From a virus, in the IMG/VR virus record IMGVR_UViG_3300036851_000636, positions 1 to 40,824 of that record: a DNA stretch of 40,824 nt; one strand, 5' to 3'. Positions 6,653-40,824 of the stretch are shown here, one piece after another. Both the position numbers and the translations under genes were made by a program. The notes under the pieces are model-generated. The model ran no database searches, was not told the origin of the DNA, and saw only the letters and a list, made by a program, of their open reading frames with translations. The first letter of the stretch is position 1, and each line of letters begins with the position of its first letter.

Positions 6653-6660
6653 GGAACCCC

Positions 6661-8993: not shown

Positions 8994-9248
8994 GTGAGCG
9001 CCATGTGTGACTGCGAGTTCACCCCAGACCCCGACGAGCCCGGCGAGGAGCCGTGGCACTACTTGCGCACGTGCCCGCAACCCGAGTGCGGGAAGGAGTG
9101 GTGGGGGCTGCACTGCCCGCATGATGGGGTGCAGGCATTGTGCCCGCATTGTCACCACATGCCCAAGCCGGCGAGCTACGCCATCGAGCAGCTGGAGAAG
9201 CTGGTTCCGCCGGAGTGGCGGATTACCCGTGGGGGACGCACGATTTGA
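8994..9248 (+). CDS. Small zinc-ribbon-like protein
   Basis: An 84-residue protein from GTG (8994; an ATG three codons later is possible). It has nine cysteines in CDCEF, TCPQPECGKEWWGLHCPHDG and LCPHCHHMP, which form two or more CxxC-type knuckles typical of zinc ribbons. A short helical end follows (YAIEQLEKLVPPEW). Its stop overlaps the TTG start of the next gene. It could bind nucleic acid or protein in packaging; no function is assigned. Confidence 0.6.
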   Translation: MSAMCDCEFTPDPDEPGEEPWHYLRTCPQPECGKEWWGLHCPHDGVQALCPHCHHMPKPASYAIEQLEKLVPPEWRITRGGRTI

Positions 9249-9619
9249 CCCGCACCACCTACACCTACGCCGGCCTGGAAGTCTCCGCCGAGGCCTACGA
9301 CGAGATCGCCGGCAAGCTCAAGGCAGCCGGGTACGGTCACGCGTTCATGCCGGATGGGGCGATCGACATGCACGGGATCGGGCTGATGAAGCCGCTGCCG
9401 CCAGCAGCGCGCCCCGAGGATGAGGTGCACGCCATCTTGCCAGACGGGTACGCGCAACGCGGGCTGCCGCAGGTGACCGTCATACCGAACCCGTTGGGCG
9501 AGGATGCGTCCAGCGAGCGCCAAGCCACGGTCGAGCGGGTGGAGCGCCTTGCTGAGGGAATAGACACCGGCGGCGGTATCGACCGCGAGACGCAGCCCCT
9601 TTGGAAGGGACCCCGATGA
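9245..9619 (+). CDS. Protein of unknown function with TTG start
   Basis: A 124-residue protein if it starts at TTG (9245), which overlaps the previous stop (TTGA). It reads TRTTYTYAGLEVSAEAYDEI then AGKLKAAGYGHAFMPDGAID, a plausible small alpha/beta domain. A second part has EDEVHAILPDGYAQRGLPQV and a disordered end. The frame is open further upstream but would overlap the zinc-ribbon gene fully. No family is recognised. Confidence 0.55.
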   Translation: MTRTTYTYAGLEVSAEAYDEIAGKLKAAGYGHAFMPDGAIDMHGIGLMKPLPPAARPEDEVHAILPDGYAQRGLPQVTVIPNPLGEDASSERQATVERVERLAEGIDTGGGIDRETQPLWKGPR

Positions 9620-10848: not shown

Positions 10849-10853
10849 GCCCC

Positions 10854-11057
10854 ATGGCTGGCCGCGTCCGCACTCTCCTCGACCTCGTGATCCAGGCCGA
10901 CCCCGACTACGTGCGGGAGAGGAACTACGTCACCGAGTACGAGGTGTCTGCCCCTGGCCGGCGCCCGACAGGACGTGCAGGGGAGTACATCGACGAGTCG
11001 GGGCGGCGGGTGTTCAAGGCGTACGAGCCGCAGCGGGGGGCGTATTCGGATGACTGA
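10854..11057 (+). CDS. Small protein of unknown function
   Basis: A 67-residue protein MAGRVRTLLDLVIQADPDYV followed by ERNYVTEYEVSAPGRRPTGR and a Gly/Tyr-rich end (RRVFKAYEPQRGAYSDD). It overlaps the next gene by eight bases. Start and spacing are good but no family is recognised. Confidence 0.55.
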   Translation: MAGRVRTLLDLVIQADPDYVRERNYVTEYEVSAPGRRPTGRAGEYIDESGRRVFKAYEPQRGAYSDD

Positions 11058-11316
11058 GCGCGGCAGCCCGCTTCGGCGCGCCCTGGTGCGCAAGCACTTC
11101 GCCATCACAACCGCGGCTCTGTCCACCGCGCCATCGGCCCCACCCGCCGATCATCCGCCGCTCGGGTTCGGCCAATGGTGCAGGCTCTACAGCGGCGGCC
11201 CGGCTATGCTCGTGGTTGACGTGGAGCCCGAACACGTGACCGCAGCGTGGGGGCCTGGGGAGACGGACGAGTATCGCTTCCCGCGTGCGTGTGTGAGGCG
11301 GTGCGCTCAGCCATGA
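11050..11316 (+). CDS. DUF2158-like small protein
   Basis: An 88-residue protein. GFGQWCRLYSGGPAMLVVDV then VTAAWGPGETDEYRFPRACV follows the DUF2158 (YodC) pattern: a beta strand with a basic residue before SGGPxM, a short valine-rich strand, a C/A-x-W strand and a closing F-x-x-x-x-(L/V). The family is small and beta-barrel-like, and its function is unknown. The first 30 residues are extra. The stop overlaps the next start by four bases. Confidence 0.58.
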   Translation: MTERGSPLRRALVRKHFAITTAALSTAPSAPPADHPPLGFGQWCRLYSGGPAMLVVDVEPEHVTAAWGPGETDEYRFPRACVRRCAQP

Positions 11317-11600
11317 TCGGCAAGCAACCTGCGCGCGGTTCTGATCGCGTCGTGATCCGCGCCGCCAGGGACGACGGCGTTACCCGCGTGCGGCTGGCGT
11401 ATTTGGCCCACCTGATGGGCGACAACTTCAAGCACGTCGATATCGAGCTTGTGCCGCCTAAGGTTGAGCCCAGCCTCGACGAGGAGGATGGCCGAGCCCG
11501 GTTTGGGTGGAGCCTCGGCGGCGAGAAGGGGATGCGCTACTGGGTCCGCGACCGTGTCCGCGTGCCGCGTGGCTGCTACCCCATGAGATGCCACCCATGA
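11313..11600 (+). CDS. Small protein of unknown function
   Basis: A 95-residue protein starting MIGKQPARGSDRVVIRAARD. It has strand-like segments (RVVIRAARDDGVTRVRLAYL, KHVDIELVPPKV, GMRYWVRDRVRVPRGCYPM). It overlaps both neighbours by ATGA junctions, which supports translation as part of the coupled series 11050-11908. No family is recognised. Confidence 0.52.
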   Translation: MIGKQPARGSDRVVIRAARDDGVTRVRLAYLAHLMGDNFKHVDIELVPPKVEPSLDEEDGRARFGWSLGGEKGMRYWVRDRVRVPRGCYPMRCHP

Positions 11601-11908
11601 GCGAGATCGACCGCCGCACGTTCCTGACCGGCGCTGCGGCCGTCAGCGTCGGCGGCCCGGCGGCGTTGGCACCGTGCGCGGATGCCACTCTCACCGCAGC
11701 TCCTGCACGCTTCTACGAGCAGAGCATCGCCGATCTCATCGTCGAGTATCTGCATCCAGGCCCTGGGTATCTGATTCAGCTCACCCCCAAGCAGCGCTGG
11801 AAGATGCGCTACCGCGAGGAGCGCATGGCCCGGAAGGGCCGCAAGGACCCGGTGATGGAGAGCCGGGTTGGGACTTGGCAAGGCGTTCGGTTCATCGAGG
11901 AGGGGTAA
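11597..11908 (+). CDS. Small protein with a twin-arginine (Tat) signal-like N-terminus
   Basis: A 103-residue protein beginning MSEIDRRTFLTGAAAVSVGG. The RRTFL motif plus a mildly hydrophobic stretch (LTGAAAVSVGGPAALAP) and a possible A-x-A cleavage site near residues 27-30 look like a Tat signal peptide. The mature part is basic and helical (QLTPKQRWKMRYREERMARK). Tat export of a phage protein of this size would be unusual, so a chance match is possible. The ATGA overlap with the upstream gene is clear. Confidence 0.55.
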   Translation: MSEIDRRTFLTGAAAVSVGGPAALAPCADATLTAAPARFYEQSIADLIVEYLHPGPGYLIQLTPKQRWKMRYREERMARKGRKDPVMESRVGTWQGVRFIEEG

Positions 11909-11913
11909 GACCC

Positions 11914-12102
11914 GTGCGGTTGATGCGCGAGCCCGACATCCCTGCCGCGGTCCGCGCCGTTCTGGCTAGCCATCCCCACGAGAAGGCCATCGACCGACTG
12001 GTCGGCGCGGTGATGGCGCAGACGCACGGCACGGCCAACCCGACTGCCGTCCGCGCCGAGATTGCCCGGCAGATTGCCGCCCGTTCACAAGGCAAGACCT
12101 GA
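11914..12102 (+). CDS. Small helical protein resembling the GatB/YqeY tail domain
   Basis: A 62-residue protein from GTG (11914), downstream of AGGAGG; the ATG three codons later is possible. KAIDRLVGAVMAQTHGTANP followed by TAVRAEIARQIAAR matches the last helices of the GatB/YqeY tail domain, whose consensus ends GxVMxxTxGxANPxxVxxxL. In GatB that domain contacts tRNA during amidation. Here only the tail is present without a catalytic part. A tRNA-like element lies about 500 bases downstream. The match is by eye and short. Confidence 0.55.
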   Translation: MRLMREPDIPAAVRAVLASHPHEKAIDRLVGAVMAQTHGTANPTAVRAEIARQIAARSQGKT

Positions 12103-12536
12103 TGCCCCTCGCCCCTGAAACCCAAGCCGCCATCCCCGCCTGGAACCTGCGCAAGCAGGCCCAGTGGGAGCGCATCGCCTCGGCAATGCCGGGGCTGCAG
12201 CTCGTCACCTCGGGCGAGAAGGGCTCCAGCTACATGCTGGTGTGCTCGCAGACCCGAGGCCCTGATTTCGACCACGATGGCGCGCCCGGCTTCTACGAGG
12301 GCGTCGTGTTCGGCCGCCTCCCCCAGGTGATCGTCGAGCACAAGAAGGGACGGGCAGGGCAGCGCATCTCGGTGCCGGTGCCGGAGCACAAGAAGCCCAT
12401 CGAGAAGCGGGCCATCGATCTGAGGGATGGCGCCATCGACGAGATCGTCGAGGGCTGGAAGGCGGGTCGGAGCGCGCTGGAGCTGCCCTTCGTGCTTGCC
12501 GTGTGGGGCAGGGACGGGAAGATGAGGGCGCGGTAG
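12102..12536 (+). CDS. Protein of unknown function (144 residues)
   Basis: The ATG shares a base with the previous stop (TGATG). The N-terminal part has WNLRKQAQWERIASAMPGLQ. A beta-rich middle follows (SSYMLVCSQTRGPDFDHDGA, GVVFGRLPQVIVEHKKGRAG), then a helix (DLRDGAIDEIVEGWKAGR) and a short end. It is the last gene of the packed packaging block. I do not recognise a family. Confidence 0.57.
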   Translation: MPLAPETQAAIPAWNLRKQAQWERIASAMPGLQLVTSGEKGSSYMLVCSQTRGPDFDHDGAPGFYEGVVFGRLPQVIVEHKKGRAGQRISVPVPEHKKPIEKRAIDLRDGAIDEIVEGWKAGRSALELPFVLAVWGRDGKMRAR

Positions 12537-12598
12537 GCGGGCGCTGCGAGCCCAGCCCCTGCATCGCTCACCGCGAAGCGGTTGCACGCCTCACAGCT

Positions 12599-12669
12599 AC
12601 TAGAGATCGGCATCGAACCGACAGGCACCGGGTGCAACCCCGATCGCGTTTCCACGTCGCAGCACCTGC
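12599..12669 (-). tRNA. tRNA-like element, degenerate or non-canonical
   Basis: On the - strand there is a textbook T-arm (GTCGG, TTCGATG, CCGAT), a D-arm-like GCG/CGC with loop ACGTGGAAA, and an arm ATCGG/CCGGT with an 8-base loop containing TTGCA. The acceptor strands GCAGGTG and CTCTAGT pair at only five of seven positions and no CCA follows. An alternative class-II fold uses GCCGGAG (12682-12676) as the 5' acceptor (6/7 pairs) with T8-A9 after it and treats the ATCGGG/CCCGGT stem as a long variable arm. Neither fold is clean, so this may be a decayed tRNA or a tRNA-derived site. Confidence 0.28.
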
Positions 12670-12672
12670 AAT

Positions 12673-12879
12673 CTACTCCGGCTCGCGCACCACGTACACC
12701 CGCTTCCTCTGCCACGCCTCGGTGATCCCGTACTCCCTGCAGGCCTCCTCGATCGCTTGCGTCTCGGAGGCTGCATAGACGTAGCCCAGCCTCTGAGCGC
12801 GCTTGCCGCGCATCACATAGGCCGCCCAGCAGGGTGGCCGTCCATCATCGCGCGAACCTTTGCGTACGCTCCGGGCCAT
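12673..12879 (-). CDS. Small antisense protein of unknown function
   Basis: A 68-residue protein MARSVRKGSRDDGRPPCWAA followed by YVMRGKRAQRLGYVYAASET and a helix (TQAIEEACREYGITEAWQRK) ending RVYVVREPE. The strand-helix plan with a final basic strand is common in short proteins of rhizobia-like bacteria. It lies antisense between two + strand blocks. The ribosome-binding site is poor. It may be an accessory gene with its own promoter in 12880-12959. Confidence 0.6.
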   Translation of the reverse strand: MARSVRKGSRDDGRPPCWAAYVMRGKRAQRLGYVYAASETQAIEEACREYGITEAWQRKRVYVVREPE

Positions 12880-12959
12880 CCCTGAGAGCCTACCGTCCTT
12901 TGTGCCGGCGTCCCACCCCCTCCCCGAAAAGAAGAGCAAACCAGGAGCTTTGACATCCC

Positions 12960-14788: not shown

Positions 14789-17710
14789 ATGGCCTCAACC
14801 TCCTCCCGCTTCGATCCCCAGCCCCCCAACAGGGACGCCACCATTGCGGGCTCGTCCTGGGGCGGCGCCGGCCGCACGGGGGCCTTGAGTCGCGGCGCAG
14901 TGACGGCCCAGGCGCGAGGTGCTGCCAAGGGGGCGGACCTCACCTATGCCGAGCGCGCCAATCCGCCGCTCGATCTGGCGGGCCAGCCCATCGACATGCT
15001 GGGCCTGATCGGGGAGGCGGAGCGCATCTCCAGGGACTACATGGCCCGCACCGTGGAGCAGCCGCTGGCCCGTGCCTACCGGGCGTGGCAGGGCATGCAC
15101 CCGGAGGGTTCCAAGTACCTGGGCACCGCCTGGCGGGGGCGCTCGCGGCTGTTCGTGCCGAAGACGCGCGCGGCGGTGTACAAGAAGCTCGCGGCCGCGG
15201 CAGGCGCCATGTTCGCCACCGAGGACGTGGTCAACATTACCGCCGAGTTCGAGGACGACCCTATCCAGCGCGCCACCGCCGCCTCCATCAAGGGCTGCCT
15301 CGACTACCGGCTGAGCCGCTCGCATCCCAAGACCGGAGTCCCGTGGTTCCGCATCGCCATGGGCGCCTGCCTCGACAGCCAGGTCGCCGGCGTGTGCATC
15401 TCCAAGCAGTCCTGGGAGCACATGGAAGTCGAGGTGCCGGGCAAGTTCGAGCTGGCCATGGTGCCCTATCAGGACCCGGAGACCGGCGAGTACGAATTCG
15501 ACGAAGCCGACAACCCCGTCATGGTCGAGGGCAAGGTCCCCGTCATGCGCACGGTGGTGGACAAGCCCAACATCAACCTGTTCCCCATCGAGAACGGCAT
15601 CATCGACCCCGGCGCCCCGTGGTTCGATCCGGTCCAGTACGGGCGCTTCTTCGCCATGCGCTATCCGATGGGGCTCTCCGACTGCCGCGCCTGGCTCAAG
15701 TCCGGCGCCGACAAGGGCTTCATCGAGGTCGCCGATGCCCTCCTCATGAAGGGGCGTGTCGACGACGACCGCCAGGGCGTGCGCTACGCCCGCGAGGGCC
15801 GCGGCTCGGACCGCTACGAGGACGGCAAGGCGCCCGGCGAGCTCGACATCGTGTGGGTGCAGGAGAACTTCCTGCGCATCTCCGGCATCGACTGGCACTG
15901 GTGGAGCGTCGGCCGCTACGGGTACTTGAGCGAGGTGCGCGAGACCCGCGAGGCCTACCCCGAGCTGGACGGCGAGCGCCCCTACGTCATGGGCGTGTCG
16001 CAGATCGACAGCCACCGCGTGTTCCCGCAGTCGCCGGTGGACAGCTGGCAGCCGCTGCAGCTGGAGCTGAACGACATCACCAACCTGCGGCTCGACACCC
16101 TCAAGCGGTCCATCGCGCCCTTGCCCATCGTCAAGGCCGGCAAGAACGTCGACCTGGTGGCCCTGCAGCGCCGCGGCCAGCCCGATGCCATCCTGATCGC
16201 CCATGACCCCTCCGACATCTCCTTTGCCTCCGTCCCTCCCCCTCCGGGCCAGGGCTACACGGAATCCTCCGTCACCAATGCCTCCTTCGACGAGCTGGCT
16301 GGTGTGTTCTCCACCTCCTCGGTGCAGACCTCGCGCCAGTTGAACGAGACCGTGGGCGGCATGCGCCTGATGGCGGGCTCGGCCAACGCCGTGGGCGAGT
16401 TCGACCTTCGCACCTGGATCGAGACCTGGGCCGAGCCGGCGCTGCGCCAGACCGCGCACATGGTGCGTTTCCACGAGAGCGACCCCAAGATCCTCGCCAT
16501 CGCCGGCTCCAAGGCCCGCGTCATCGACCGCTTCGGCTACCAGCCCGACTTCTCCGACTTCGACCGCACCGACCTGTGGCTGCGGGTCAACGTCGGCATC
16601 GGCAACGCCGACCCCATGCAGAGCCTCGCCAAGCTGCGCATGACCTTGGAGATGCTGGCGCCAATGTATGAGGGCATGCGGGCCCAGGGCATCGATGTGG
16701 ATTACGAGGCCGTCATCGAGGAGGTGTTCGGCAAGGCCGGCTTCCGGGATGGGCGGCGCTTCTTCAAGTGGGACCAGGAGGCTCCGAGCCAGGGCGACGG
16801 TGAAGGCCAGGCCGAGATGATGAAGGTCATGGAGGAGCTGAAGCTCAAGAGCCGCCAGCTCGACCTCAACGCCGAGAAGATGCAGCTCGACTTCCAGAAG
16901 GCGATGATGCAGCTCAAGGCCCAGATGGCCGAGGGGGCGGCCGAGCGCTCGACCAAGCTCCAGCTCGAGAACGTCAAGGGTCAGCGCGAGATCGCCAAGA
17001 CGGTGGTGAGCGCGCAGGTGGGCGCCCAGGTGAGCCGGCAGGAACGGCTGGAGCAGGCGGCCATCGACGGCCGGACCAGGGCCGAGGAGCGCCAGCACGA
17101 TTCGAGGGCGCGCGCCGAAGAGCGCGCACATGGGGACCGCGTCAGGGCCGAGGACAGGGGCCACACCGACCGCACGCGGCGGGAGGACCGTGCCATCGAC
17201 GTGCTCTCCAAGCGCGAGGAGCGCTCCCACGGCGACAAGGTGCGCAAGGAGGATCAGGGCAACGCCCGGCGCTCGGAGGTGACGAAGTTCCTGTTCGGCC
17301 AGGGAGCCAAGCAGGGGGCCAAGCATGGAGCCGGCCAGAGAGCGGGGGAGAGAGCCGGCCAGGGCGCAGCCACGCGCAGCGGCGGGTCCGGTGCTGCAGC
17401 GCCCGCGGACTCGCACATGGCGCGGGCCATGCTCCGGGTCGCCGAGGAGATGCGCAACGCCAACGCCAAGCAGGGCGCCGCCCTGGAGGCGATCGCGCGC
17501 CATCTGACCGCGCCCGCCGAGATCGTGTTCGGCGCCGACGGCAAGGCCACGGGCGTGAAGAAGGGCGCTCTGACGCAGTCCATCAAGCGCGACGGCGGAC
17601 GCATCACGGGCACCGAGTCGCCAAGGGCGGGGGCGGAGGCGAGGCAGCCCGGACGGCTGGCGCCTCCGCCCAACCGTGAACCGGCGTCTCCGGCGACGAT
17701 GGGGCGCTGA
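14789..17710 (+). CDS. Portal protein with a long charged C-terminal extension
   Basis: A 973-residue protein. Residues about 70-650 carry the portal body: RAYRAWQGMHPEGSKYLGTA, SRLFVPKTRAAVYKKLAAAA, then SWEHMEVEVPGKFEL, NINLFPIENGIIDPGAPWFD and SVTNASFDELAGVFSTSSVQ, which fits large podovirus portals. From about 680 the chain is a coiled coil (MMKVMEELKLKSRQLDLNAE), and near 750-830 it becomes a run of short charged repeats built on R-x-E-(E/D)-R (RARAEERAHGDRVRAEDRG). A Gly/Ala-rich linker and an ordered tail follow. The portal forms the dodecameric DNA gate at one capsid vertex. The extension is unusually long and may reach into the capsid or contact ejection proteins. Confidence 0.85.
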   Translation: MASTSSRFDPQPPNRDATIAGSSWGGAGRTGALSRGAVTAQARGAAKGADLTYAERANPPLDLAGQPIDMLGLIGEAERISRDYMARTVEQPLARAYRAWQGMHPEGSKYLGTAWRGRSRLFVPKTRAAVYKKLAAAAGAMFATEDVVNITAEFEDDPIQRATAASIKGCLDYRLSRSHPKTGVPWFRIAMGACLDSQVAGVCISKQSWEHMEVEVPGKFELAMVPYQDPETGEYEFDEADNPVMVEGKVPVMRTVVDKPNINLFPIENGIIDPGAPWFDPVQYGRFFAMRYPMGLSDCRAWLKSGADKGFIEVADALLMKGRVDDDRQGVRYAREGRGSDRYEDGKAPGELDIVWVQENFLRISGIDWHWWSVGRYGYLSEVRETREAYPELDGERPYVMGVSQIDSHRVFPQSPVDSWQPLQLELNDITNLRLDTLKRSIAPLPIVKAGKNVDLVALQRRGQPDAILIAHDPSDISFASVPPPPGQGYTESSVTNASFDELAGVFSTSSVQTSRQLNETVGGMRLMAGSANAVGEFDLRTWIETWAEPALRQTAHMVRFHESDPKILAIAGSKARVIDRFGYQPDFSDFDRTDLWLRVNVGIGNADPMQSLAKLRMTLEMLAPMYEGMRAQGIDVDYEAVIEEVFGKAGFRDGRRFFKWDQEAPSQGDGEGQAEMMKVMEELKLKSRQLDLNAEKMQLDFQKAMMQLKAQMAEGAAERSTKLQLENVKGQREIAKTVVSAQVGAQVSRQERLEQAAIDGRTRAEERQHDSRARAEERAHGDRVRAEDRGHTDRTRREDRAIDVLSKREERSHGDKVRKEDQGNARRSEVTKFLFGQGAKQGAKHGAGQRAGERAGQGAATRSGGSGAAAPADSHMARAMLRVAEEMRNANAKQGAALEAIARHLTAPAEIVFGADGKATGVKKGALTQSIKRDGGRITGTESPRAGAEARQPGRLAPPPNREPASPATMGR

Positions 17711-22648: not shown

Positions 22649-23647
22649 ATGACCGCGATCGTATGGGAAGACCAGGGCGAAGGCTTCTGGTACAACGACG
22701 AGCTCTCCGACTATCTGCGCACTGCTCTGCAGCCGGCGGTCAAGTTCCGCCAGCTCTGCGAGCCCGACCCCGGCGCCATGGAGAAAGGCCTCCATGTCGG
22801 CGAGCGCTACCGCTGGAACAACTACGGCAACGTGTCCCAGCAGGGCCGCAAGCTCGTGGAGACGGCCCCGGTGCCGGAGGCCAACCTCACGGTCAGCCAG
22901 GGCGAGCTCACCATCACCGAGTTCGGTCTGTCGGTGCCGTACACGGGCAAGCTGACCGCGCTCGCCAAGCACGATGTCATCCGCATCATCTCCAAGGCGC
23001 TGAAGAACGACGCCCGCAAGGCCTTCGACATCGAGGCGTTCCTGCAGTTCAAGGCGACCCCGATCCGGGTGGCCCCGAGCGGCGGCACCTCGACCACGGC
23101 GGTCACCATCACGGAGAACTCCGCCACCGCCACCACCAACAACGTGGCGCTGGGCACCGGCCACGTGAAGGCCATCGTCGATGCCAAGCGCGAACGCAAC
23201 ATCCCCGGCTACGTCGAGGACGACTACGTCGCCATCTCGCATCCCACCACCTGGCGGCCGTTCAAGAACGAGTTGGAGACCCTGCACCAGTACACCGACC
23301 TGGGGCTCAACAAGATCTTCAACGGCGAGATCGGCCGCTACGAGGCCACCCGCTTCGTCGAGGAGAACTTCATCCCGAAGGGCGGCGCCAACGACGCGGC
23401 GGTCTACGACCCCTACACGGGTACGGCGGAGGCCTGGGACACCGGCAAGTCCTCGTGGGCCTTCTTCTTCGGCGGCGACACCGTGCAGGAGGCGGTCGTC
23501 ATCCCCGAGGAGATCAGGGCCAAGATCCCCGGCGACTTCGGCCGTGCCCGCGGCATCATGTGGTACGCGATGACCGGCTTCGGCATCACCCACGACGCCG
23601 ATGTGCCGTCGGAAGCCCGCATCACGATGTGGGATAGTGCTGCATAA
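22649..23647 (+). CDS. Major capsid protein, N4-gp56-like
   Basis: A 332-residue protein. VKFRQLCEPDPGAMEKGLHV, LTVSQGELTITEFGLSVPYT, the central DDYVAISHPTTWRPFKNELE and the stretch IFNGEIGRYEATRFVEENFI match the N4-gp56 family of HK97-fold capsid proteins. AAGGAA lies upstream of the ATG. The length is close to family norms. It is flanked by scaffold upstream and by decoration-type genes downstream, with a homing endonuclease gene now lying between them. No N-terminal cleavage is obvious. Confidence 0.88.
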   Translation: MTAIVWEDQGEGFWYNDELSDYLRTALQPAVKFRQLCEPDPGAMEKGLHVGERYRWNNYGNVSQQGRKLVETAPVPEANLTVSQGELTITEFGLSVPYTGKLTALAKHDVIRIISKALKNDARKAFDIEAFLQFKATPIRVAPSGGTSTTAVTITENSATATTNNVALGTGHVKAIVDAKRERNIPGYVEDDYVAISHPTTWRPFKNELETLHQYTDLGLNKIFNGEIGRYEATRFVEENFIPKGGANDAAVYDPYTGTAEAWDTGKSSWAFFFGGDTVQEAVVIPEEIRAKIPGDFGRARGIMWYAMTGFGITHDADVPSEARITMWDSAA

Positions 23648-23706: not shown

Positions 23707-24345
23707 ATGCGATACCGCCCCATCGAAGAGCGCTTTGCGGAGAAGTACGTGATCGACGCTGAGACAGGATGCTGGAACTGGACCGGGGCGAAAATACCCG
23801 GCGGGTATGGCCATCTCCACCAGTACCGTGGAAACGATATCCCCGCCCATCGCTTCTCGTACGAGTGTCATATCGGTCCAGTGCCGGCAGGCATGATCGT
23901 TCGGCACACCTGCGATAATCCGGGTTGCGTCAACCCGAATCATCTCTGCCTCGGCACCCATGTCGACAACATGAAGGACATGGACCGTCGAGGTCGCGCG
24001 CGGGTCCTATCTGCCGAGCAGGTCTCCGCCATCTTGTCAATGCTCGAGACCAAGAGTCAAACGGCAGTGGCAGAAGAGTTCGGCGTCAACCGGGCCACAA
24101 TCCAGCGAGCTATCAACCACGCGCGAGCAGGCGATTATGGCCCATCGCTCGCAATCTCGGCTGGAGATAAGCCCCACATCTCTCTGTCTTCCGAGCAGCG
24201 TTCCGAAGCCATTTGGATGCTCGAAGCGGGTGAGCGCGTCATGACGGTGGCGAAGCACTTCGGCGTCGATCGCAAGACTATCCGCAATCTCCGACCCAAG
24301 CATGTCGCGCCACCGCCCATGGGGCGGCCCAGGCGGGGACACTGA
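23707..24345 (+). CDS. Free-standing HNH homing endonuclease
   Basis: A 212-residue protein. Residues ~20-90 form an HNH domain of the HNH_3 type: GCWNWTGAKIPGGYGHLHQY, AHRFSYECHIGPVPAG, then VRHTCDNPGCVNPNHLCLGT with H67, Cys69/Cys74, N78-H79 and H85. The C-terminal half holds two helix-turn-helix-like repeats (QTAVAEEFGVNRATIQRAIN and VMTVAKHFGVDRKTIRNLRP), which would read target DNA. Its codons look less GC-biased than the capsid gene. Such genes invade intergenic DNA next to conserved virion genes and cleave alleles that lack them. Confidence 0.85.
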   Translation: MRYRPIEERFAEKYVIDAETGCWNWTGAKIPGGYGHLHQYRGNDIPAHRFSYECHIGPVPAGMIVRHTCDNPGCVNPNHLCLGTHVDNMKDMDRRGRARVLSAEQVSAILSMLETKSQTAVAEEFGVNRATIQRAINHARAGDYGPSLAISAGDKPHISLSSEQRSEAIWMLEAGERVMTVAKHFGVDRKTIRNLRPKHVAPPPMGRPRRGH

Positions 24346-29029: not shown

Positions 29030-29107
29030 CGCTCTTAGCCCCAATCAGATCTCTGACAAGACGCCCACCACACCATGGGCTGGGCGCCACAGTCAAGTGC
29101 GGACGCC

Positions 29108-30913
29108 ATGTCCAACCTCCCCCTCGAAATCCCCCCCGGCATCGTGCGCACGCGTTCGGAGAACGCGGCCAAGGGCCGCTTCACGTCCGCCGATCACATC
29201 CGCTTCGTCAACGGCCTGCCCGAGAAGTGGAAGGGCTGGCGGAAGCTGATCGCGGAGCAGATGCTGGGCAAGGCCCGTGGCGCCATCGGCTGGTCCAACG
29301 CCTTCGGCAACCCCAACGCCGCCTTCGGCACCAACCTCAAGCTCTACGCCCTGCTCGGCAACGATACGCTGCAGGACATCACGCCGCTCGTGGCGTCCGG
29401 GACGCTTGGCAACGATCCCTTCGCGGTGGTGGAGGATTCCACCACCGTCACCGTCACGGACACCGCCCACGGGCGGGCCGAGGGGGATTTCGTCACTTAC
29501 GACGGGGCCACGGCCGGCGGGGGCATCACGGTCGACGGCGAGTACCCGGTTGCGACCGTGATCGATGTCGATCACTACACCATCGAGCACTCGGTGGCCG
29601 CCACCTCCACGGACTCCACCACCGGCGGCAACGCCGTCACCTACGAGTACCAGATCAACGTCGGGCTGGCCGACACGGTGGCAGGCCTGGGCTGGGGTGC
29701 GGGCGCCTGGGGCGAGGGGGAGTGGTCCACCCCGCGCGCGGAAGGCATCCCCCTGGAGTTCCGCTACTACTCGCTCTCCGAGTACGGCAACGAATTGCTC
29801 GCCAATCCCTCCACCTTGAGCCTCTATCTGTGGGAGGAGGCGACCGACGCGCGGGCCGAACTGGTGACCAATGCGCCCGCCAATATCCGGGCCATGTTCG
29901 TCACCGGCGAGCGGTTCATCTTCGCGCTGGGCTGCCTCGACGTGTCCCCCATGACGGTCAAGTGGCCGGACCGGGACGACCTCACCGACTGGACGCCGAC
30001 GGCCGCCAACACCGCCAATGAGAGGACGCTGCAGTCGGGCTCCAAGCTGATGGGGGGCTGTGCGCTCACCGACGGCATCTCGCTGGTGTGGTCCGACACC
30101 TCGCTCTATGTGTTCCAGTACACCGGCGACGAGTTCATCTACTCGGACCGGCTGGTGGCGACGGGCTGCGGGCTGGCTGCTCCTCTTGCCTTCTGCAAGG
30201 TCGGGGGCATGGCGTTCTGGTTCTCGGGCCGGCAGCTGTGGATGTATGCGGGCGGGGCGGTCCCGATTCCCAACTGCGGCGACCAGCTCGACGTGATGCT
30301 GGAGGAGATGGACCCCGCCCAGACCGCCAAGACCTGGGCCGAGTTCGACCAGTTCAACCATCAGGTGCGGTTCCACTACTGTGCGCTGGGCAGCACCGAG
30401 CCGAACCGCTACGTCGACGTGAACCTGCCCGAGGAAGCGTCCGCCAACGCTGACGACTGGGCCTGGACCAACGGCACCTGGCCCGACCCCCGCACCACCG
30501 GCTGCATCTTCCGCCACGAGGCCGGGGCCTCGATCCTGGTGGATGACGACGGCTTCCTCTACTCGCACAACGACGGGCTCGACGACGACGAGGACGCGCT
30601 CGACTGGCACCTGACCTGGGGCTTGTACGCCTTGAGCCGGGGGGAGCAGAACGTCGACGTGTTCGACATCATCCCCGACACTGAGAGGCAGATCGGCGCC
30701 GTCACCTACACGGTCTTCACCAAGGACCGGTCGAACGACGCCGGCAACCTCGACGAGATGGCCGTTACCGCATCCCCGACCGAGGGGAGGGTCGAGGCCC
30801 GCGTGTCGGGGCGGCACTTCTCCATGACCGCCAGCCAGTCGGGCGCGCGCGGCGGCGACGTGCGCTTCGGCATCATGAACCTCAATGTGCAGGATGCGGG
30901 TGAGCGGCCATGA
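29108..30913 (+). CDS. Tail nozzle/stopper-type protein (P22 gp10-like)
   Basis: A 601-residue protein. It starts MSNLPLEIPPGIVRTRSENA then RFTSADHIRFVNGLPEKWKG, a conserved opening of podovirus tail nozzle or head-closure proteins (P22 gp10 type). The rest is a run of beta repeats with W/F/Y blades (SLVWSDTSLYVFQYTGDEFI, GGMAFWFSGRQLWMYAGGAV) that suggests a propeller-like body. It is expected to follow the adaptor in the tail and gate DNA exit. The exact homologue cannot be fixed without a search. Confidence 0.66.
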   Translation: MSNLPLEIPPGIVRTRSENAAKGRFTSADHIRFVNGLPEKWKGWRKLIAEQMLGKARGAIGWSNAFGNPNAAFGTNLKLYALLGNDTLQDITPLVASGTLGNDPFAVVEDSTTVTVTDTAHGRAEGDFVTYDGATAGGGITVDGEYPVATVIDVDHYTIEHSVAATSTDSTTGGNAVTYEYQINVGLADTVAGLGWGAGAWGEGEWSTPRAEGIPLEFRYYSLSEYGNELLANPSTLSLYLWEEATDARAELVTNAPANIRAMFVTGERFIFALGCLDVSPMTVKWPDRDDLTDWTPTAANTANERTLQSGSKLMGGCALTDGISLVWSDTSLYVFQYTGDEFIYSDRLVATGCGLAAPLAFCKVGGMAFWFSGRQLWMYAGGAVPIPNCGDQLDVMLEEMDPAQTAKTWAEFDQFNHQVRFHYCALGSTEPNRYVDVNLPEEASANADDWAWTNGTWPDPRTTGCIFRHEAGASILVDDDGFLYSHNDGLDDDEDALDWHLTWGLYALSRGEQNVDVFDIIPDTERQIGAVTYTVFTKDRSNDAGNLDEMAVTASPTEGRVEARVSGRHFSMTASQSGARGGDVRFGIMNLNVQDAGERP

Positions 30914-33718: not shown

Positions 33719-35266
33719 ATGGCAGCGACCCTTGGCGAAATCTTGCCCCAGCTGCTCCAGCAGGTCCTGGGTGTCCCGCAGGCGGCAGCGGCGGGCCCAG
33801 GCCCCGGCCCTGGCGGCGGCCCCGGTGCCGGGCCGGCCTTCGAGCCAGACGATATCAGCGAGCTTCTGCAATCGCTGCAGTTCAAGGGGTCGCCCGCCGC
33901 ACCTCCGACCGGACCGGGCGGGATGCTCGAGCATCTGCAGAAGGCGATGGCGCCGATGGTGCCGGGCACCACATCGGTTGCCCGGCAGGGGCCGGCCGCA
34001 CCGCCGCTGCGCCGCATGCCTGGGACCGGCTCCGATTATGCGGCGTCGCCGCCGGCCGCGCCCCCAGTTGCGCCCGGCACGGCGGGTCCCATGCTCCCCG
34101 GCACGGCGGGCTCGGCGCCGGCCAGCGGCGGGCTCGCCGATCAGTTGCGTGGGCTGGTCCAGCAGCTGCTCGGTGGCGCACCGACCGACTTCGCGCGCGG
34201 CAACCAGGCCAACGAGCGGCCGGCCGTCGATCTGGCGCGCACGCCCGCAACGGGCGTGGTCCGCACCGATCCGACCGGAGCCGCGAGGCGCCCGACCGAC
34301 TTCGCGGCAGGCACCGAGGCCAACGAGCGCCCGGGCGTTCCCGACGGCATGCTCGCCCAGCTCCGCAACGCCATGTCGGCGGCGATGCCGGGGCCTGCCG
34401 GCGCGCCGACCAACATCGACGGCATGGACCAGCGCCCGGCCCGTCAGGTCTACGAGGGCGGCCGTCTGCAGCCCAACGTGCCGGCCTTCGGCCGCCCCCG
34501 GACACAGGTCGCCACCGACCAGGACGCCCCCCTCGCCGAAACCATCACGCGCGGAGCCGAGCAGGCCCAGGCGGGACGGGCGGCGGCCAATCCCTGGAGC
34601 GGGGACAACGCACCCAATACCATCATGACCCTCCTCGCGCGCGCGCTGCAGGGCATGGGGCAGGTGGACTCCAGGCAGCCGGGACTGGTCGCCGCGGGCC
34701 AAGGGGCATCCGGCGCCATCAGGGCCGGCACGGAGGCGCAGGACCGCGAGCAGCGCCGCAAGCTGGCCGAGTCCCAGAGCACCAGGGCGGACCGGGCCGA
34801 TACGCGGGCCGACCGGGCGGACATCCGCGCCGAGGAGACGCACGGTCTCAATCTGCAGAAGCTGGAGGCGGAGGTGCGCCGCCTCAACGGCGGGCCTCTC
34901 ACGCCCGATCAGAAGCTCAAGCTTCAGCAGGTCGCGGCAACGCTCTATCGCTCGGGTCGTGGCGGCGCGGTGCGCGCGGCAACGGCCGAGGAGATCAACC
35001 GGGACGCCGACGCCATCTATGGCAACCTCGCGCAGCGGCACGGGCTGCCGGGTACGGCTCCGGTGGGCGGACTGCCGGCACCGGGGGCACCGGCTCCGGC
35101 ACAGAGCGGGGCGCCTCGCGCGGCGGCGCCGGCACCCTCTGCTGCATCGGGCGCGGCCCGCGGCGCCGGCGTGCCCATGAACGGCACCTACACCGCTGCC
35201 GACGGCAAGACCTACAAGCGCGTCGGCCCCGGCAATACGCAGGCCGACTGGCAGCTCGTCCAGTAA
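33719..35266 (+). CDS. Low-complexity internal virion-type protein
   Basis: A 515-residue Pro/Ala/Gly-rich protein. An internal repeat is visible: PTDFARGNQANERPAVDLA at 155 and PTDFAAGTEANERPGVPDG at 192. Further on, a helical part carries RADRAD-type repeats (SQSTRADRADTRADRADIRA, about 350-370) like those in the portal extension. Late ordered parts (PDQKLKLQQVAATLYRSGRG and EINRDADAIYGNLAQRHGLP) and a final TYTAADGKTYKRVGPGNTQA follow. Order after the tail genes and before the giant polyvalent gene fits an ejection (internal head) protein. No family is assigned. Confidence 0.6.
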   Translation: MAATLGEILPQLLQQVLGVPQAAAAGPGPGPGGGPGAGPAFEPDDISELLQSLQFKGSPAAPPTGPGGMLEHLQKAMAPMVPGTTSVARQGPAAPPLRRMPGTGSDYAASPPAAPPVAPGTAGPMLPGTAGSAPASGGLADQLRGLVQQLLGGAPTDFARGNQANERPAVDLARTPATGVVRTDPTGAARRPTDFAAGTEANERPGVPDGMLAQLRNAMSAAMPGPAGAPTNIDGMDQRPARQVYEGGRLQPNVPAFGRPRTQVATDQDAPLAETITRGAEQAQAGRAAANPWSGDNAPNTIMTLLARALQGMGQVDSRQPGLVAAGQGASGAIRAGTEAQDREQRRKLAESQSTRADRADTRADRADIRAEETHGLNLQKLEAEVRRLNGGPLTPDQKLKLQQVAATLYRSGRGGAVRAATAEEINRDADAIYGNLAQRHGLPGTAPVGGLPAPGAPAPAQSGAPRAAAPAPSAASGAARGAGVPMNGTYTAADGKTYKRVGPGNTQADWQLVQ

Positions 35267-35353: not shown

Positions 35354-38300
35354 ATGACGACGGACGACCCGTTCGACGACCTGGGCGCAGACGTGCCGTG
35401 GGCAGCCGACGTGCCAGCGGGCGCGCCGGCCGCCCCGACTGTCGATGCCGATGTGCCGTGGGCGCTCCCCGGCGCGTCGCCGACGCCGGCCGCGCCGAAG
35501 GCGCCAGCGGCCGCCCCAGCGGCTGCCGATGCGTCAGCATCCGAGGCGGCACCCTTCCCCGGCCGCATGGACCTGGGCCGCAACCAGCGCCGGCAAGACG
35601 CTGGGCAGGACCAGTCCGCCTCGTTCACCAGTACGGTGCCGAACCCTGAGAACTGGTGGGAGCAGTCGTTCGGGACAGGCGTCCAGCCGGTGGAGCCCGC
35701 ACCCGTGCCGGCTCCTGTCCCGGCCCCACGCCGCCGTCAGCCGGCCGCGGCTCCCGCACCGACCGCCCCACAGCCGCAGCCGGCCGCAGACCGGCCGTGG
35801 GCACCTGCAGCTCTCCCGCCGCTATCGGAGCTTCCCGGCCGTGCTGCCCGCCAGTTCGGGACGGTCGCGCGCGGAGTAGGCACCGCCGCGCTCAACGTCG
35901 GTGAAGCGATCGCCAACATCCCGCGTGCGCTGGGAGAGCTTTCCGCCCGCTATGAGTCCGGGGGACGCGGCGTCGGCTTCATCTCCACCGGCCGCGACGA
36001 TCCGGGTGGGCAGTCCTACGGGGTGCACCAGCTCTCCGGCAACTACTCGATGGGGGCGTTCCTGCGCTCCCCTGAAGGGGCGCCCTACCGCAATGCGTTC
36101 GGCGGCACCCGGCCGGCAACGGACTCGTTCAACCGCATCTATCGCGATGTCGCCGCCCGCGACCCGGAAGCGTTCGCCGAGGCGCAGCGTGGCTTCTACC
36201 ACCGCACGCACTATGAGCCGGTACGTTCGGTCGCTGAGGCGCGCGGGTTCGACGTGAGAAACCGGGGCGTGCAGGAAGCCCTGTTCTCCATCTCCGTGCA
36301 GCACGGCGGCGCTGCCAGGATCGTCGGCCGTGCCGCCCGCATGCTTGGTCCCAACGCCAGCCCCGAGGACCAGCTGCGGGCGCTCTACCAGGCACGCTCC
36401 AACTACGTCTCCGGCTTGCGCGATCTGCCAGGCCGCACGAGGGGCGCCGTGCTCGATCGCTACCGGCGCGAGATGGGCGACGCCATCGCGCTGGCGTCCG
36501 ATCCGGCGGCCGTTCCCGCCTCCACGACCCCCGCCCCCGCGAACATGCTCCCCACCTCCCAGGCGCCGGAGCTTGTCCGTGCGATGGGCCAGGAGCCGCC
36601 GCCCGCACCGGCCCGCATGCCCACAACCGATACGGCTCGCATGGGGCTCGGCATGGGCGGGGTGCTGGGCGCCCTCGACGATGACGGCGATGGGGATGGC
36701 GAGGACCGGCTCGATACCGAAGCGGGGCCTGCCGATCTGCCGGCCGCGCCGGAGGAGGTGCTTGCGCCGACACTGGTGGCGGACAGGCCCGCAGCAGGAG
36801 CGGACGTGCCGTGGGCGGCAGGGCCGGCCGCGCCTCCCGCTGCAGCGCCCGCCGGACAGCGGCAGGCGGACGTGCCGTGGGCACCGGCCGCCGCACCCGT
36901 CGCGCCTGCCGCGCAGTCGGAGGCGACGCAGGCCGGCAATGCCCGCCTCTTCGGCCTCAACGTGCCGGCGGGGAGCCTTCCCGGCCTGCTTGCCGGAGCG
37001 AAGCCGACCCAGCCCGCACTCTCGCCTGAGGAGGCGCAGGCCGCAGGGCAGGCCGAGCTGCAGACCGCCGAGTGGTGGGCGCCGGTGTGGCGCCGGGTCG
37101 CCGATCTCATCCCCGAGGGCTATCGCGAGAACCCGGAGCTCAAGGCAGCGGCCGCTGCGGCCGCCGAGGCGGCCGACAGCGGTGATCGCGAGGCCTACCG
37201 CGCTGCCATGCGCGAGGCACGCAAGGTTGCCAGGTCGATGCCGTGGGCAACCCAGCTTCCCGTAGTTCACGGCTTTACGAGCCAGCTGCAGCGCGCCCTC
37301 GATTCCCAGGCGCGCCAGGCCGAGGAACGGCTCGACCGCGCCCGCAAGATGATGCGCGGGGAGTTGGACCTCCCCTCCCAGACCTACGGCCAGAACCTCG
37401 CCAACACGGTCAACCAGACCATCGCCGAGTCGTTCACGTCGTCGTGGCTGCAGTATCTCGGCATCCTCCAGGGCCACGCCCAGGAAGCTGCCGGGCTCGG
37501 GGATGCCGACGACACCACGCTCTACCGCTTCGGCCAGCAGGTAGAGCAGTGGATCAAGGAGATGTTCCCCAACGACCCGGCCCGCCAGCAGGAGTTCTCC
37601 ACCGCGCTGGCGCAGGGCGCGGCGTCGACGACGGCGTTCCTCGGCCAGGGCATGGTGGCGGGGCTCCTCAAGGCCGGCACGGCAGGCCAGCTCGCCGTGA
37701 TGGGTCTCTCGGGCGCTGCCATGCAGGTGCCCGACGAGTTCGAGCGGGTCAGCAAGGCAGTCCGCGCTGGCACCGCGACCGAGCAGGACCGCCGGTGGGT
37801 CACCACCCTCAATACCGTCGGCGGCCTTACCGAAGCGCTCCCGTTCGTGCGGACCTTTGCCGGCCGGGGCGCACGTGGCGTGCCGGGCGCGCTGGCGCGC
37901 GGCGCCGAGCAGGCGACCGAGGAGTCCCTGCAGGAGGTCACGCAGACCCTCATCCAGAACAACGCGCGGCTGATCTACGATTCCACCCAGGACCCCTACG
38001 AGGGTGCCGTCCAGGGCGGCTTGATCGGCCTCATCACCGGCGGCATCTTCGGCGCGGGGATGTCCCAGGCCCAGGCCAACGCGGAAGCGCGCGCCGCAGT
38101 GGAACGCGGTCGTGCGCTCGGCTTCGAGGTGGTGCAGTCCGCCAACGACGGCCGGATGAATGCCGGCGTGCGCGGTGGCCGGACCGACACCGCCCCGGCG
38201 CCGCAACCGCCAGCCCAGCCGCAGCCTGTGCCGGTCCCCGCTGAGGCGCCAGCGGGCGCACCGCCGCCCGACCAGGCTCCGCCCACGCTCCAGCCCTCCC

Positions 38301-40824
38301 CGCAGTTGCCGGTCGATGAGGCCCCCGCCGTCGGCTCCGACATGCCGATCGAGCCGGTGGAGGATCTGATCGCTGCGGCCCAGGACCTGGCCGACCCTGA
38401 GAGCCAGCGCCGGGCGCTGTTCCTGTCCGGCGCCCATCTCGATGCCCTTGCCGACAACCCGGACGCGGCCATCGCGCTGCGCCAGGTGCTGGAGGAGATG
38501 GCCGTCGACCACGGCCAGATCGCCCACGACTTCGACGGCGAGGGCGGCATCCTGGTCGGCCAGACTCCGGCGCTCAGGAAGCGCGCGGAGCGCCTGCGGG
38601 ACCGGGGCGTGCCGATCGAGGAGATCATCTCCACGCTCACCGGCCGGCCGGTCGCGCAGGCCGGCGCCGCACCGGTTGCAGAGGCCCCGGCACGTGTAGA
38701 GGCACCTGTAGAGGCGGCGGTTGCCCCCCAGGTCCAGGAGCCGCCCGCGGGATCGCCAGCCCCACCGGCGGAGCGCCCCGACCCCAACGCCTTCTCGGTC
38801 CTGAAATCCCTGCGCACGCAAGGCGAAGAGGCTACGCGTGAGCGCCTTGCAGCCCACGGCGACCTTGCCGACCTGATCGCGCTCGGCAAGGCCCAGGCCG
38901 GGTTCACCCAAGCCAACCCCCCCGCCACAGTGGAAGACGCCATCGAGCGTATCGTTGCGGGTGCGCGCCGGCGCGATGCCGACATGGCCGCAGCGACCGG
39001 GCGGGAGAGCGACCTCGACTTCTCCAACGCCGCCAAGGGCCCCGGGTCTCCTGGAGCGCCCATCAAGGCGGCGACCCCGGAGGATATCGAGGTCGGGGCA
39101 CTGCGCGTACAGCAGCCCAAGAGCCAGCGGCAGGCGGAAGCGGGGACCTACCGCCAGGCGCACATCAAGTTCGACCGCTCAACCCCGCTCTACGGCCTCG
39201 CTGTCACCGTCGAGACGCCCAAGGGCGAGCCGCGGCAGAAGCTCGACGATGAGACCAACGAGGTCGAGTGGCGTCTTGAGAAAATGCCGGCGCATTACGG
39301 CAAGTTCGTGGGACCGGGCGTCAAGATCCGGGCGCGGGACGGCGAGCATCCGGACGTGTACGTGGGCGACAACCCCATGTCGCCCCGGGCATTCATCGTC
39401 GACCAGTACGAGCGCGGCTCCGACGAGTTCGACGAGCCCAAGGCGTTCGTTGCGGTCGATTCTCTCCAGGACGTGCTCCGCATCTACGACGCCGCCTTCT
39501 CCGACGGCTCAGGCTCGGAGCGCCGCGGCCGCGTCACGGAAGTGTCGGTCCAGGAGATCAAGGACTGGCTCCGGGACGGCGACGCCACCAGGCCCTACTC
39601 CGACCTGACCGAGGAGCAGATCGACAACATCCTCGACCTGACGGACGAGGACATCGACAACATCGTCACCGAGTGGCGGACGGCGCGCGCGGTCATCGCC
39701 GAGCGCACGCGCGACCGCCTCAAGCTCGCGGCCGCGGCCGAGCTCATCGAAAGGCATGGGGTAGACTATGGCATCACCGACCGTTTCACCGACGAGACCG
39801 CCCTCCGTCGACACCTCGGCCAGGACCTTGAAGCTCCTGCTGAAGGGAGCGAAGGCACGCTCGAGCAGGCACAAGCGGGCGAGGCGGGCACTGCAGACCG
39901 GGGAGGCGCTGCAGCCGGAGAGCCTGCCGGCGGCCCTGTCGAGCTCCCCGACGGCAGCCCCGAGCCAGCCGCAGAAGGCGGCGCCCCTGCAGAAGCAGCC
40001 CAAACGCAGCCAGTCGCGGCAGATGCCGGTGCCGTCGAGCGTGGCGAGGGAGCCCGACCGGGTGAGCGCGAAGACGGAGGACCAGAAGGTGCTCGATCGG
40101 ATGAACGAGCAGATGCGGTAGCGGAGGAGCCCACCGGCACCAGCGGTGAGGCCCCGGCCGATGCCAGCGCCGATGTCACACTCGCCCACGCGCTCCTCAA
40201 GCGCATCAAGGCCGGCGAGCGCATCACCAACAAGGTCCTGATCGACGAGGCAGCCAAGGCCTACGGCGGCACCCTGGCGGAAGGGAAGTTCGACCGCAAG
40301 GACGCCTATGACGCCCTGGAATTGGCGGTCAACCTGGCCGTCAAGGGGAGTTGGGATTACCGCCTCACCCCGATGGATCTGGACTGGAACGGACCATTCA
40401 AGGCGCTCGACAAGCTCCTGACCGGCCTGCCGACGCAGACTGTGCGCTCCGAGGAGCAGGTTGCCTTCCAGCAGTTCTCGACACCGCCGACCTATGCGCT
40501 GGCCGCAGCCTATGCTGCGAACGTGCGTTCTGGGGATGCCGTTCTCGAGCCGTCCGCCGGCACCGGCTCGCTGGTGGCAGCCGCCTCGCGGCCCGGCGTC
40601 ACGATCGTCGCCAACGAGCTTTCCGACCGTCGCGCCGCCCTCCTCAAGGAGCTGATCGGCAAGGACGGCGAGGTGTTCCAGGAGGACGCCGAGCAGATCG
40701 ACAACATTCTCCCCGACCGGGTGAAGCCCACCGTCGTCATCATGAACCCGCCCTTCTCCCGGGCGGGGGCTCGCATGGGCGACAAGAAGCTGCCCATGAC
40801 GGCCGCCAAGCACATCGAGGCGGC
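35354..40824 (+). CDS. Giant polyvalent protein: lysozyme-like, InPase-like and DNA-methyltransferase-like domains (continues beyond the window)
   Basis: One frame of more than 1,820 codons without a stop, open at the right edge. In order: acidic N-terminus with DVPWA at residues 13 and 33; Pro/Ala linker; lysozyme-like domain at about 190-380 (YESGGRGVGFISTGRDDPGG with E201, then FSISVQHGGAARIVGRA); a D-rich loop DDDGDGDGEDR near 440; DVPWA again at 484 and 506; helical region; hydrophobic Gly/Ala segments at about 755-905 (FLGQGMVAGLLKAGTAGQLA, GGLIGLITGGIFGAGMSQA); Pro-rich linker; InPase-like domain at 1265-1410 (MPAHYGKFVGPGVKIRARDG, HPDVYVGDNP, FIVDQYERG); acidic linker; and an N6-adenine methyltransferase-like start with EPSAGTGSL at 1732 and NPPF at 1798. 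Polyvalent proteins of this sort are packaged and injected; anti-restriction is a usual inferred role. An SNF2-type helicase part may follow outside the window. Confidence 0.82.
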   Translation, partial: MTTDDPFDDLGADVPWAADVPAGAPAAPTVDADVPWALPGASPTPAAPKAPAAAPAAADASASEAAPFPGRMDLGRNQRRQDAGQDQSASFTSTVPNPENWWEQSFGTGVQPVEPAPVPAPVPAPRRRQPAAAPAPTAPQPQPAADRPWAPAALPPLSELPGRAARQFGTVARGVGTAALNVGEAIANIPRALGELSARYESGGRGVGFISTGRDDPGGQSYGVHQLSGNYSMGAFLRSPEGAPYRNAFGGTRPATDSFNRIYRDVAARDPEAFAEAQRGFYHRTHYEPVRSVAEARGFDVRNRGVQEALFSISVQHGGAARIVGRAARMLGPNASPEDQLRALYQARSNYVSGLRDLPGRTRGAVLDRYRREMGDAIALASDPAAVPASTTPAPANMLPTSQAPELVRAMGQEPPPAPARMPTTDTARMGLGMGGVLGALDDDGDGDGEDRLDTEAGPADLPAAPEEVLAPTLVADRPAAGADVPWAAGPAAPPAAAPAGQRQADVPWAPAAAPVAPAAQSEATQAGNARLFGLNVPAGSLPGLLAGAKPTQPALSPEEAQAAGQAELQTAEWWAPVWRRVADLIPEGYRENPELKAAAAAAAEAADSGDREAYRAAMREARKVARSMPWATQLPVVHGFTSQLQRALDSQARQAEERLDRARKMMRGELDLPSQTYGQNLANTVNQTIAESFTSSWLQYLGILQGHAQEAAGLGDADDTTLYRFGQQVEQWIKEMFPNDPARQQEFSTALAQGAASTTAFLGQGMVAGLLKAGTAGQLAVMGLSGAAMQVPDEFERVSKAVRAGTATEQDRRWVTTLNTVGGLTEALPFVRTFAGRGARGVPGALARGAEQATEESLQEVTQTLIQNNARLIYDSTQDPYEGAVQGGLIGLITGGIFGAGMSQAQANAEARAAVERGRALGFEVVQSANDGRMNAGVRGGRTDTAPAPQPPAQPQPVPVPAEAPAGAPPPDQAPPTLQPSPQLPVDEAPAVGSDMPIEPVEDLIAAAQDLADPESQRRALFLSGAHLDALADNPDAAIALRQVLEEMAVDHGQIAHDFDGEGGILVGQTPALRKRAERLRDRGVPIEEIISTLTGRPVAQAGAAPVAEAPARVEAPVEAAVAPQVQEPPAGSPAPPAERPDPNAFSVLKSLRTQGEEATRERLAAHGDLADLIALGKAQAGFTQANPPATVEDAIERIVAGARRRDADMAAATGRESDLDFSNAAKGPGSPGAPIKAATPEDIEVGALRVQQPKSQRQAEAGTYRQAHIKFDRSTPLYGLAVTVETPKGEPRQKLDDETNEVEWRLEKMPAHYGKFVGPGVKIRARDGEHPDVYVGDNPMSPRAFIVDQYERGSDEFDEPKAFVAVDSLQDVLRIYDAAFSDGSGSERRGRVTEVSVQEIKDWLRDGDATRPYSDLTEEQIDNILDLTDEDIDNIVTEWRTARAVIAERTRDRLKLAAAAELIERHGVDYGITDRFTDETALRRHLGQDLEAPAEGSEGTLEQAQAGEAGTADRGGAAAGEPAGGPVELPDGSPEPAAEGGAPAEAAQTQPVAADAGAVERGEGARPGEREDGGPEGARSDERADAVAEEPTGTSGEAPADASADVTLAHALLKRIKAGERITNKVLIDEAAKAYGGTLAEGKFDRKDAYDALELAVNLAVKGSWDYRLTPMDLDWNGPFKALDKLLTGLPTQTVRSEEQVAFQQFSTPPTYALAAAYAANVRSGDAVLEPSAGTGSLVAAASRPGVTIVANELSDRRAALLKELIGKDGEVFQEDAEQIDNILPDRVKPTVVIMNPPFSRAGARMGDKKLPMTAAKHIEA

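Follow-up and report, generated by a model that had tools for sequence, protein, structure and literature searches.

A giant polyvalent, probably ejection-type protein of a short-tailed phage joins a VgrG3-type wall enzyme, a pyrophosphatase-like domain and a strawberry-notch-coupled DNA methyltransferase

The stretch of DNA analysed here (the window) is the linear IMG/VR record IMGVR_UViG_3300036851_000636 at its full length of 40,824 bp, and it holds the late region of a podovirus. Besides the genes listed below, the window encodes a small terminase, a phrog_2941 virion protein, a collar-type fibre and GNAT.

7220–8944, plus strand: terminase large subunit
14789–17710, plus strand: portal protein
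22649–23647, plus strand: major capsid protein (N4 gp56-like)
29075–30913, plus strand: virion structural protein (phrog_3287), with a homologue in L026
32403–33656, plus strand: DNA-ejection-protein homologue with a C-terminal S74 chaperone domain (phrog_4287, E 6e-30)
33719–35266, plus strand: Pro/Ala/Gln-rich protein without a family match, encoded after the ejection protein and before the giant
35354–40822, plus strand: giant polyvalent protein of the ejection type, visible over 1,823 aa, with its 3' end outside the contig

The 3' end of the window thus reads ejection-protein homologue, 33719–35266 protein, giant. At the other end, many small ORFs without a family match surround the terminase genes (positions 30–12,900), and the small and large terminase genes are 1.3 kb apart. 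Neither a tRNA nor any Rfam family at gathering score was detected in the window.

The giant ORF (35354–40822) shows no stop up to the contig end, and since the record is linear, the gene is truncated. In this DNA of 67–75% GC the minus strand, too, has a long ORF here (1,113 aa), so an open frame alone is weak proof of coding. GC at codon position 3 is 0.72–0.96 throughout the giant frame and, together with the domains and their homologues, supports the frame as coding. An earlier note on this DNA, made from the letters alone, had described a frame open over 5.47 kb with segments of three unrelated enzymes; Pfam and PHROG matches bear out all three, among them HMM matches to both the pyrophosphatase-like (InPase) domain and the DNA methyltransferase (MTase), and every motif that it quoted is present (YESGG at aa 200, SVQHGGA, HPDVYVG at 1332–1338, IVDQYERG at 1348, EPSAGTGSL at 1732 and NPPF at 1798). 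The first two domains also have PHROG matches to large phage proteins of unknown function. With at least two domains of disparate activity in one chain and a gene that sits among late and virion genes, the giant belongs, as the note had proposed, to the polyvalent phage proteins, a class published in 2017 (PMC5512222). Direct single-sequence searches of viral contigs with the whole giant, and with the product of the 29075 gene, gave no matches; alignments of single domains worked. From the N-terminus, the order of its parts is a repeated motif, a VgrG3-type muramidase, a helical module, the InPase domain and the MTase:

35387–35464, plus strand: repeated motif ADVPWA (aa 12, 32), its copies written in different synonymous codons
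35930–36469, plus strand: VgrG3-type peptidoglycan hydrolase domain (PF21277, T6SS_VgrG3-like_C; aa 193–372, Pfam E 1.3e-34)
36800–36883, plus strand: two more ADVPWA copies (aa 483, 505), C-terminal to the wall enzyme
37511–38077, plus strand: Gly-rich helical module common to sister giants (aa 720–908, hhalign)
39128–39571, plus strand: InPase domain (type I pyrophosphatase-like, PF18823; aa 1259–1406, Pfam E 2.3e-24)
40181–40822, plus strand: helical N-terminal part and N6-adenine DNA MTase of the strawberry-notch-coupled type (aa 1610–1823)

The wall domain had been taken for a lysozyme-like one; it is indeed a wall enzyme, but of the VgrG3 type with a chitosanase fold (PF21277) and not a classical lysozyme. 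Residues 193–372 match the C-terminal domain of Vibrio cholerae VgrG3 (PDB 4noo/4nso, E 6e-25). E201 and D216 are invariant across the phage homologues and also present in 4noo, and we take them to be the counterparts of the VgrG3 catalytic residues; the profile match and this Glu/Asp pair together assign the domain to PF21277 as a putative wall hydrolase. The giant resembles the V. cholerae VgrG3 effector domain and phage 'putative VgrG' proteins in its PF21277 domain with invariant Glu and Asp, but the domain is internal in the giant and elsewhere belongs to a T6SS spike tip or a myovirus tail-cluster protein. Its nearest homologues (60–67% identity) are separate ORFs of 636–933 aa in uncultured phages (L102–L104), the one in L102 being open to its locus end. 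The gene just downstream of the VgrG3 protein in L103 encodes a DarB-type MTase protein.

Among the loci examined, we found no second one in which a VgrG3-type enzyme is fused to an InPase domain or to an MTase of the strawberry-notch (Sbno)-coupled type: PF21277 occurred in 0/50 contigs carrying the giant's MTase type, and an MTase or InPase shared the ORF of the VgrG3 domain in 0/80 VgrG3 loci. A fusion met once could suggest that metagenome assembly had wrongly joined the VgrG3 part to the giant in frame. We consider such an error very improbable, since the frame is open with high codon-position-3 GC through the junctions, ADVPWA stands on both sides of the VgrG3 domain, which would be unexpected from a random join, and in related giants the corresponding slot is occupied by other wall enzymes. 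In Atu_ph08 and POI1126 this N-terminal slot holds Hydrolase_2 plus Peptidase_M15_3, and in Microcystis phage Mwe-JY07 it resembles a soluble lytic transglycosylase by eye, with no Pfam match; no recognisable wall enzyme was found in the slot in L017, L020 and L026. Because other giants have different wall enzymes or none at this place, the wall-opening part of giant ejection-type proteins looks like a swappable slot.

The MTase core spans about aa 1624–1822, with PHROG DNA-methyltransferase matches at 1700–1804. It contains, in order, TP (1705–1712), EPSAGTG (1732) and NPPF (1798), with STP, EPSAGTG and NPPF lying within aa 1709–1801, and the order TP, (D/E)PxxGxG, NPP(Y/F) defines the gamma-class N6-adenine DNA MTases in PMC5512222. 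The earlier note had also invoked DarB-like proteins. No BLAST match was found between this MTase and those of three DarB-like giants (P0002–P0004); the MTase part (METHYLTRANSFERASE) is 46% identical over 201 aa to a Methylomonas plasmid strawberry-notch polyvalent protein, aa 1605–1822 are about 45% identical to plasmid proteins, and the MTase region is 60–70% identical to uncultured phage giants. Judged by these relatives, the MTase is of the Sbno-coupled and not the DarB type, so 'DarB-like' is an analogy for this part. With the DarB/SNF2-type proteins (Bcep22 gp75 family) the giant has in common an N-terminal wall hydrolase and an InPase upstream of the MTase, but it does not fit their arrangement of a DarB-type MTase ahead of SNF2 and LPD39: its MTase gave no BLAST match to those of P0002–P0004, and the relatives of that MTase have Sbno in place of SNF2.

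This MTase type was detected in 185 viral contigs, 80 of which were fetched for analysis. Where 900 aa or more follow the MTase in a distinct homologue, the helicase domains AAA_34 and Helicase_C_4 come next in 54/56 and a DarB-type SNF2 in 0/56. This makes the missing part of the giant predictable as an Sbno helicase: the helicase is predicted to start beyond the contig end, about 180–510 aa (median 257) after the MTase, and would be the second half of a methylase–helicase dyad whose MTase half is present. InPase lies in the same ORF as the MTase in 13 of the 65 homologues with a complete N-terminus. The plasmid protein of Methylomonas sp. LL1 (WP_230874547.1) has a related MTase directly before AAA_34 and Helicase_C_4, together with ArdcN and MPTase domains of its own, and Pfam detects no wall enzyme or InPase in it. 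In the bacterial genome collection, the closest relative was found in a Rhodospirillales MAG (60%, InPase–MTase–Sbno), which gives a weak hint of the host.

The InPase domain matches the PF18823 profile and has the conserved acidic metal ligands of that family. The acidic positions E, D, D, D, D are invariant or nearly so; the giant has E for the central D, as well as a local insertion, and both features make its activity uncertain. It is homologous to the InPase of Bcep22-like giants at 27–31% identity. When an AlphaFold model (pLDDT 79.8) was compared with PDB entries by Foldseek, the top 20 matches were all inorganic pyrophosphatases, but the TM-scores were modest, at about 0.38, and no more than three matches reached E ≤ 0.001. 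Among solved structures, the best sequence match is to a phage portal, in its C-terminal tail (PDB 9b41, E 4e-40); we take this entry to be the Pa193 portal from the matching protein name and length. Residues 529–765 of the Pa193 portal have no density in the map (PMC11042391), and InPase fused to a phage portal also appears in PMC5512222. In other phages the domain therefore travels with virions, and since the best solved match is a portal tail without density in the Pa193 map, the InPase of the giant could have a structural role instead of an enzymatic one. In L018 and L019, a 422-aa ORF separates the gene for InPase from the one for MTase–Sbno, a split that would reflect either gene fission or the unfused state.

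Residues 720–908 aligned with the same region of the giants of L016, L017 and L020 at an hhalign probability of 95–96% over about 170 columns, with L026 at 86%, and with the P0004/P0002 group at 91% over 56 columns; shuffled controls stayed below 1%. A jackhmmer search from this module found no relatives, and profile–profile comparison alone detected them. The hydrophobic stretches reported by the earlier note are of moderate hydrophobicity but not of transmembrane grade: no 19-residue window exceeds a Kyte–Doolittle value of 1.5 (maxima 1.40 at 885–903 and 1.31 at 767–785), and no clear transmembrane helix was found in the giant. What lies there instead is a conserved module of Gly-rich, only moderately hydrophobic helices, which does not have the predicted transmembrane helices of an inner-membrane channel. 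Its AlphaFold model is all-helical, unreliable (pLDDT 43.6) and too poor for a structure search. From the position of the module and the example of T7 gp16 (PMC8954989), we infer that it may have a membrane role. The C-terminal 900 aa or so of P0002–P0004 contain LPD39 and, after it, strongly hydrophobic stretches (about 4340–4730), which make a better case for a membrane region than does the middle module of the giant.

The hexapeptide ADVPWA, present at four places in the giant, has one near copy, ADRPWA, at aa 145. Sister giants repeat other motifs in their first 60 aa, including LD(V/I)(T/S)GLxP, DDWIVP, YLSTDPxFGL and LDYDPFED, and the L026 giant repeats DLSQYG slightly beyond the first 60 aa. 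Repeats within the first 130 aa were seen in the giants of L016, L017, L020, L026, L041, L083 and others. Over the first 60 aa, 15/65 non-redundant giants had a repeat score of 40 or more, compared with 7/975 random segments of the same proteins, 11/520 linker-like segments and 4/270 N-termini of other genes; a first, looser test over the first 130 aa, with shuffles, gave 30/68 giants against 13/60 controls. As the sequences that first drew attention to the feature are also those on which it was tested, this enrichment is a lead and not a formal test. We also considered whether giants in general have tag copies beyond aa 60, and rejected this because only 3/19 tagged giants do. Other proteins of the same phages did not convincingly share the tag, with one isolated DVPEW near the N-terminus of the ejection protein.

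On the simplest reading, the N-terminal repeat is possibly a docking or packaging tag, which makes it a concrete lead on how giants could be loaded into virions. A fuller version of this idea, which we offer tentatively and would not bet on, is that private acidic–hydrophobic repeats (2–5 copies) act as multivalent docking tags that load giants into their own virions, and that the present giant arose by fusion of a wall enzyme with an Sbno-type giant, each already tagged, and kept both tag sets; the ADVPWA copies after the wall enzyme would fit such a fusion of two tagged proteins. The same placement, with the copies at aa 12 and 32 on the N-terminal side of the wall enzyme and those at aa 483 and 505 on its C-terminal side, might also mark a polyprotein that is cleaved in the virion or the host into a wall-enzyme piece and an InPase–MTase–helicase piece, each with its ADVPWA tag. 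Processing of polyvalent proteins by MPTase has been proposed by Iyer et al. (PMC5512222), and the separate genes for the VgrG3 and MTase proteins in L103, where they adjoin, and for InPase and MTase in L018/L019 would suit it. Against this, Pfam finds no peptidase domain in the visible part of the giant, and the second set of copies is a rarity (the 3/19 above); we regard cleavage as unlikely.

T7 gp16 and P22 gp16 resemble the giant only in how they work, with an N-terminal peptidoglycan hydrolase (T7), a membrane-active middle and a DNA-handling C-terminal part. To our knowledge, T7 gp16 has no methyltransferase, helicase or InPase. The order of cell-wall enzyme first and DNA enzyme last, which the earlier note had read as mirroring the path of ejection, is the same as in T7 gp16 (PMC8954989). 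The Bcep22-like giants (JC1 gp69, POI1126 gp30, Atu_ph08 gp21 and that of Mwe-JY07) are like the giant in combining a wall hydrolase, a helical module, InPase, MTase and (helicase), in their slot after virion proteins and in a related helical module (P0004/P0002 group), but they have wall enzymes of their own (Hydrolase_2 plus M15, or an SLT-like region) and a DarB-type MTase with SNF2. By annotation, the late-gene layouts around the DarB-like giant are similar in Ochrobactrum phage POI1126 and Burkholderia phage JC1 (JC1, PMC9144972). The candidate assignment of the phage itself as Bcep22-like by gene order was dropped, as PHROG families and phmmer searches of the neighbours did not support common descent. 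The neighbour genes belong to other PHROG families than those in POI1126, Atu_ph08 and Mwe-JY07, so the resemblance is one of layout and not of proven descent, and a virion location is carried over to the giant by analogy. The comparable giant JC1 gp69 was detected in CsCl-purified virions by mass spectrometry with 51 unique peptides (PMC9144972).

We think it likely that the giant is an ejection protein of a short-tailed phage, one that is packaged, passed through the tail, and cuts the wall before it acts on DNA; its late position after the ejection-protein gene and the presence of JC1 gp69 in virions support this reading, though they do not prove it. By analogy with JC1 gp69, the giant would be packaged in the phage head and, on infection, would traverse the tail in unfolded form. 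The muramidase would then act in the periplasm and the helical module would sit at or in the inner membrane, leaving the InPase–MTase–helicase part to meet the incoming DNA in the cytoplasm and act on it. In this compartment, the helicase may translocate on DNA, the N6-MTase may modify the DNA or guard it against restriction, as DarB is described to protect P1 DNA in cis (PMC5512222), and the InPase may remove pyrophosphate or an infection-induced nucleotide. Packaging of the giant is argued by analogy, and the VgrG3-type domains of other phages adjoin annotated tail or baseplate genes and are not found in ejection proteins, both of which would also suit an antirestriction or DNA-modification enzyme that is made in the infected cell and never injected, its wall enzyme being a fused lysis or tail module. 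We find this quite unlikely, as the giant gene follows ejection-protein and virion genes, a comparable giant is present in virions by mass spectrometry (PMC9144972), and wall and DNA enzymes in one chain would be hard to use from the cytoplasm alone.

The polyvalent class and most of these domains were already known. In Iyer et al. 2017 (PMC5512222), polyvalent proteins likewise combine disparate enzymes in one chain encoded beside virion genes, InPase occurs along with an MTase that has an N-terminal helical cap, and lysozyme-type domains occur as well. The available part of that text does not name a VgrG3-type wall enzyme, and the paper gives the Sbno ATPase in only 'a few instances' of polyvalent proteins; the strawberry-notch dyad is best known from plasmids, whereas in uncultured phages its helicase is the usual partner of the giant's MTase type. 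New here are the VgrG3-type wall enzyme in the slot, the finding of how often the Sbno dyad occurs in uncultured phages, a helical module common to several giants, and the repeats at the N-terminus. No second case of the combination of the giant's parts was found among the sequences searched, and within the open-access literature only the 2017 paper was relevant to this domain combination. These observations show that a second methylase–helicase dyad, of the strawberry-notch type, is widespread in uncultured phages and suggest that the wall-opening part of giant ejection-type proteins may be exchangeable.

The closest related phage is IMGVR_UViG_3300047409_000266 (G011, containing locus L026; 96.5 kb; TerL 50%, portal 38%). 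It shares with the window the gene order TerL, portal, capsid, phrog_3287, ejection protein and giant, allowing for a permuted contig start, and its giant of 4,831 aa has InPase, Sbno helicase and LPD38 by Pfam as well as a homologous MTase. The major capsid gene of G011 (L097, G011:C1:83501-96528, about 8,600–12,200) is broken into three coding parts, two of which are separated by an HNH ORF, and this region has three group I intron matches (E 1.9e-9, 2.9e-7 and 2e-5) below the Rfam gathering score. No group I intron match was obtained at 23707–24345 of the window, where a free-standing HNH endonuclease gene directly follows an intact major capsid gene. This HNH gene is homologous to the HNH ORF inside the capsid gene of G011.
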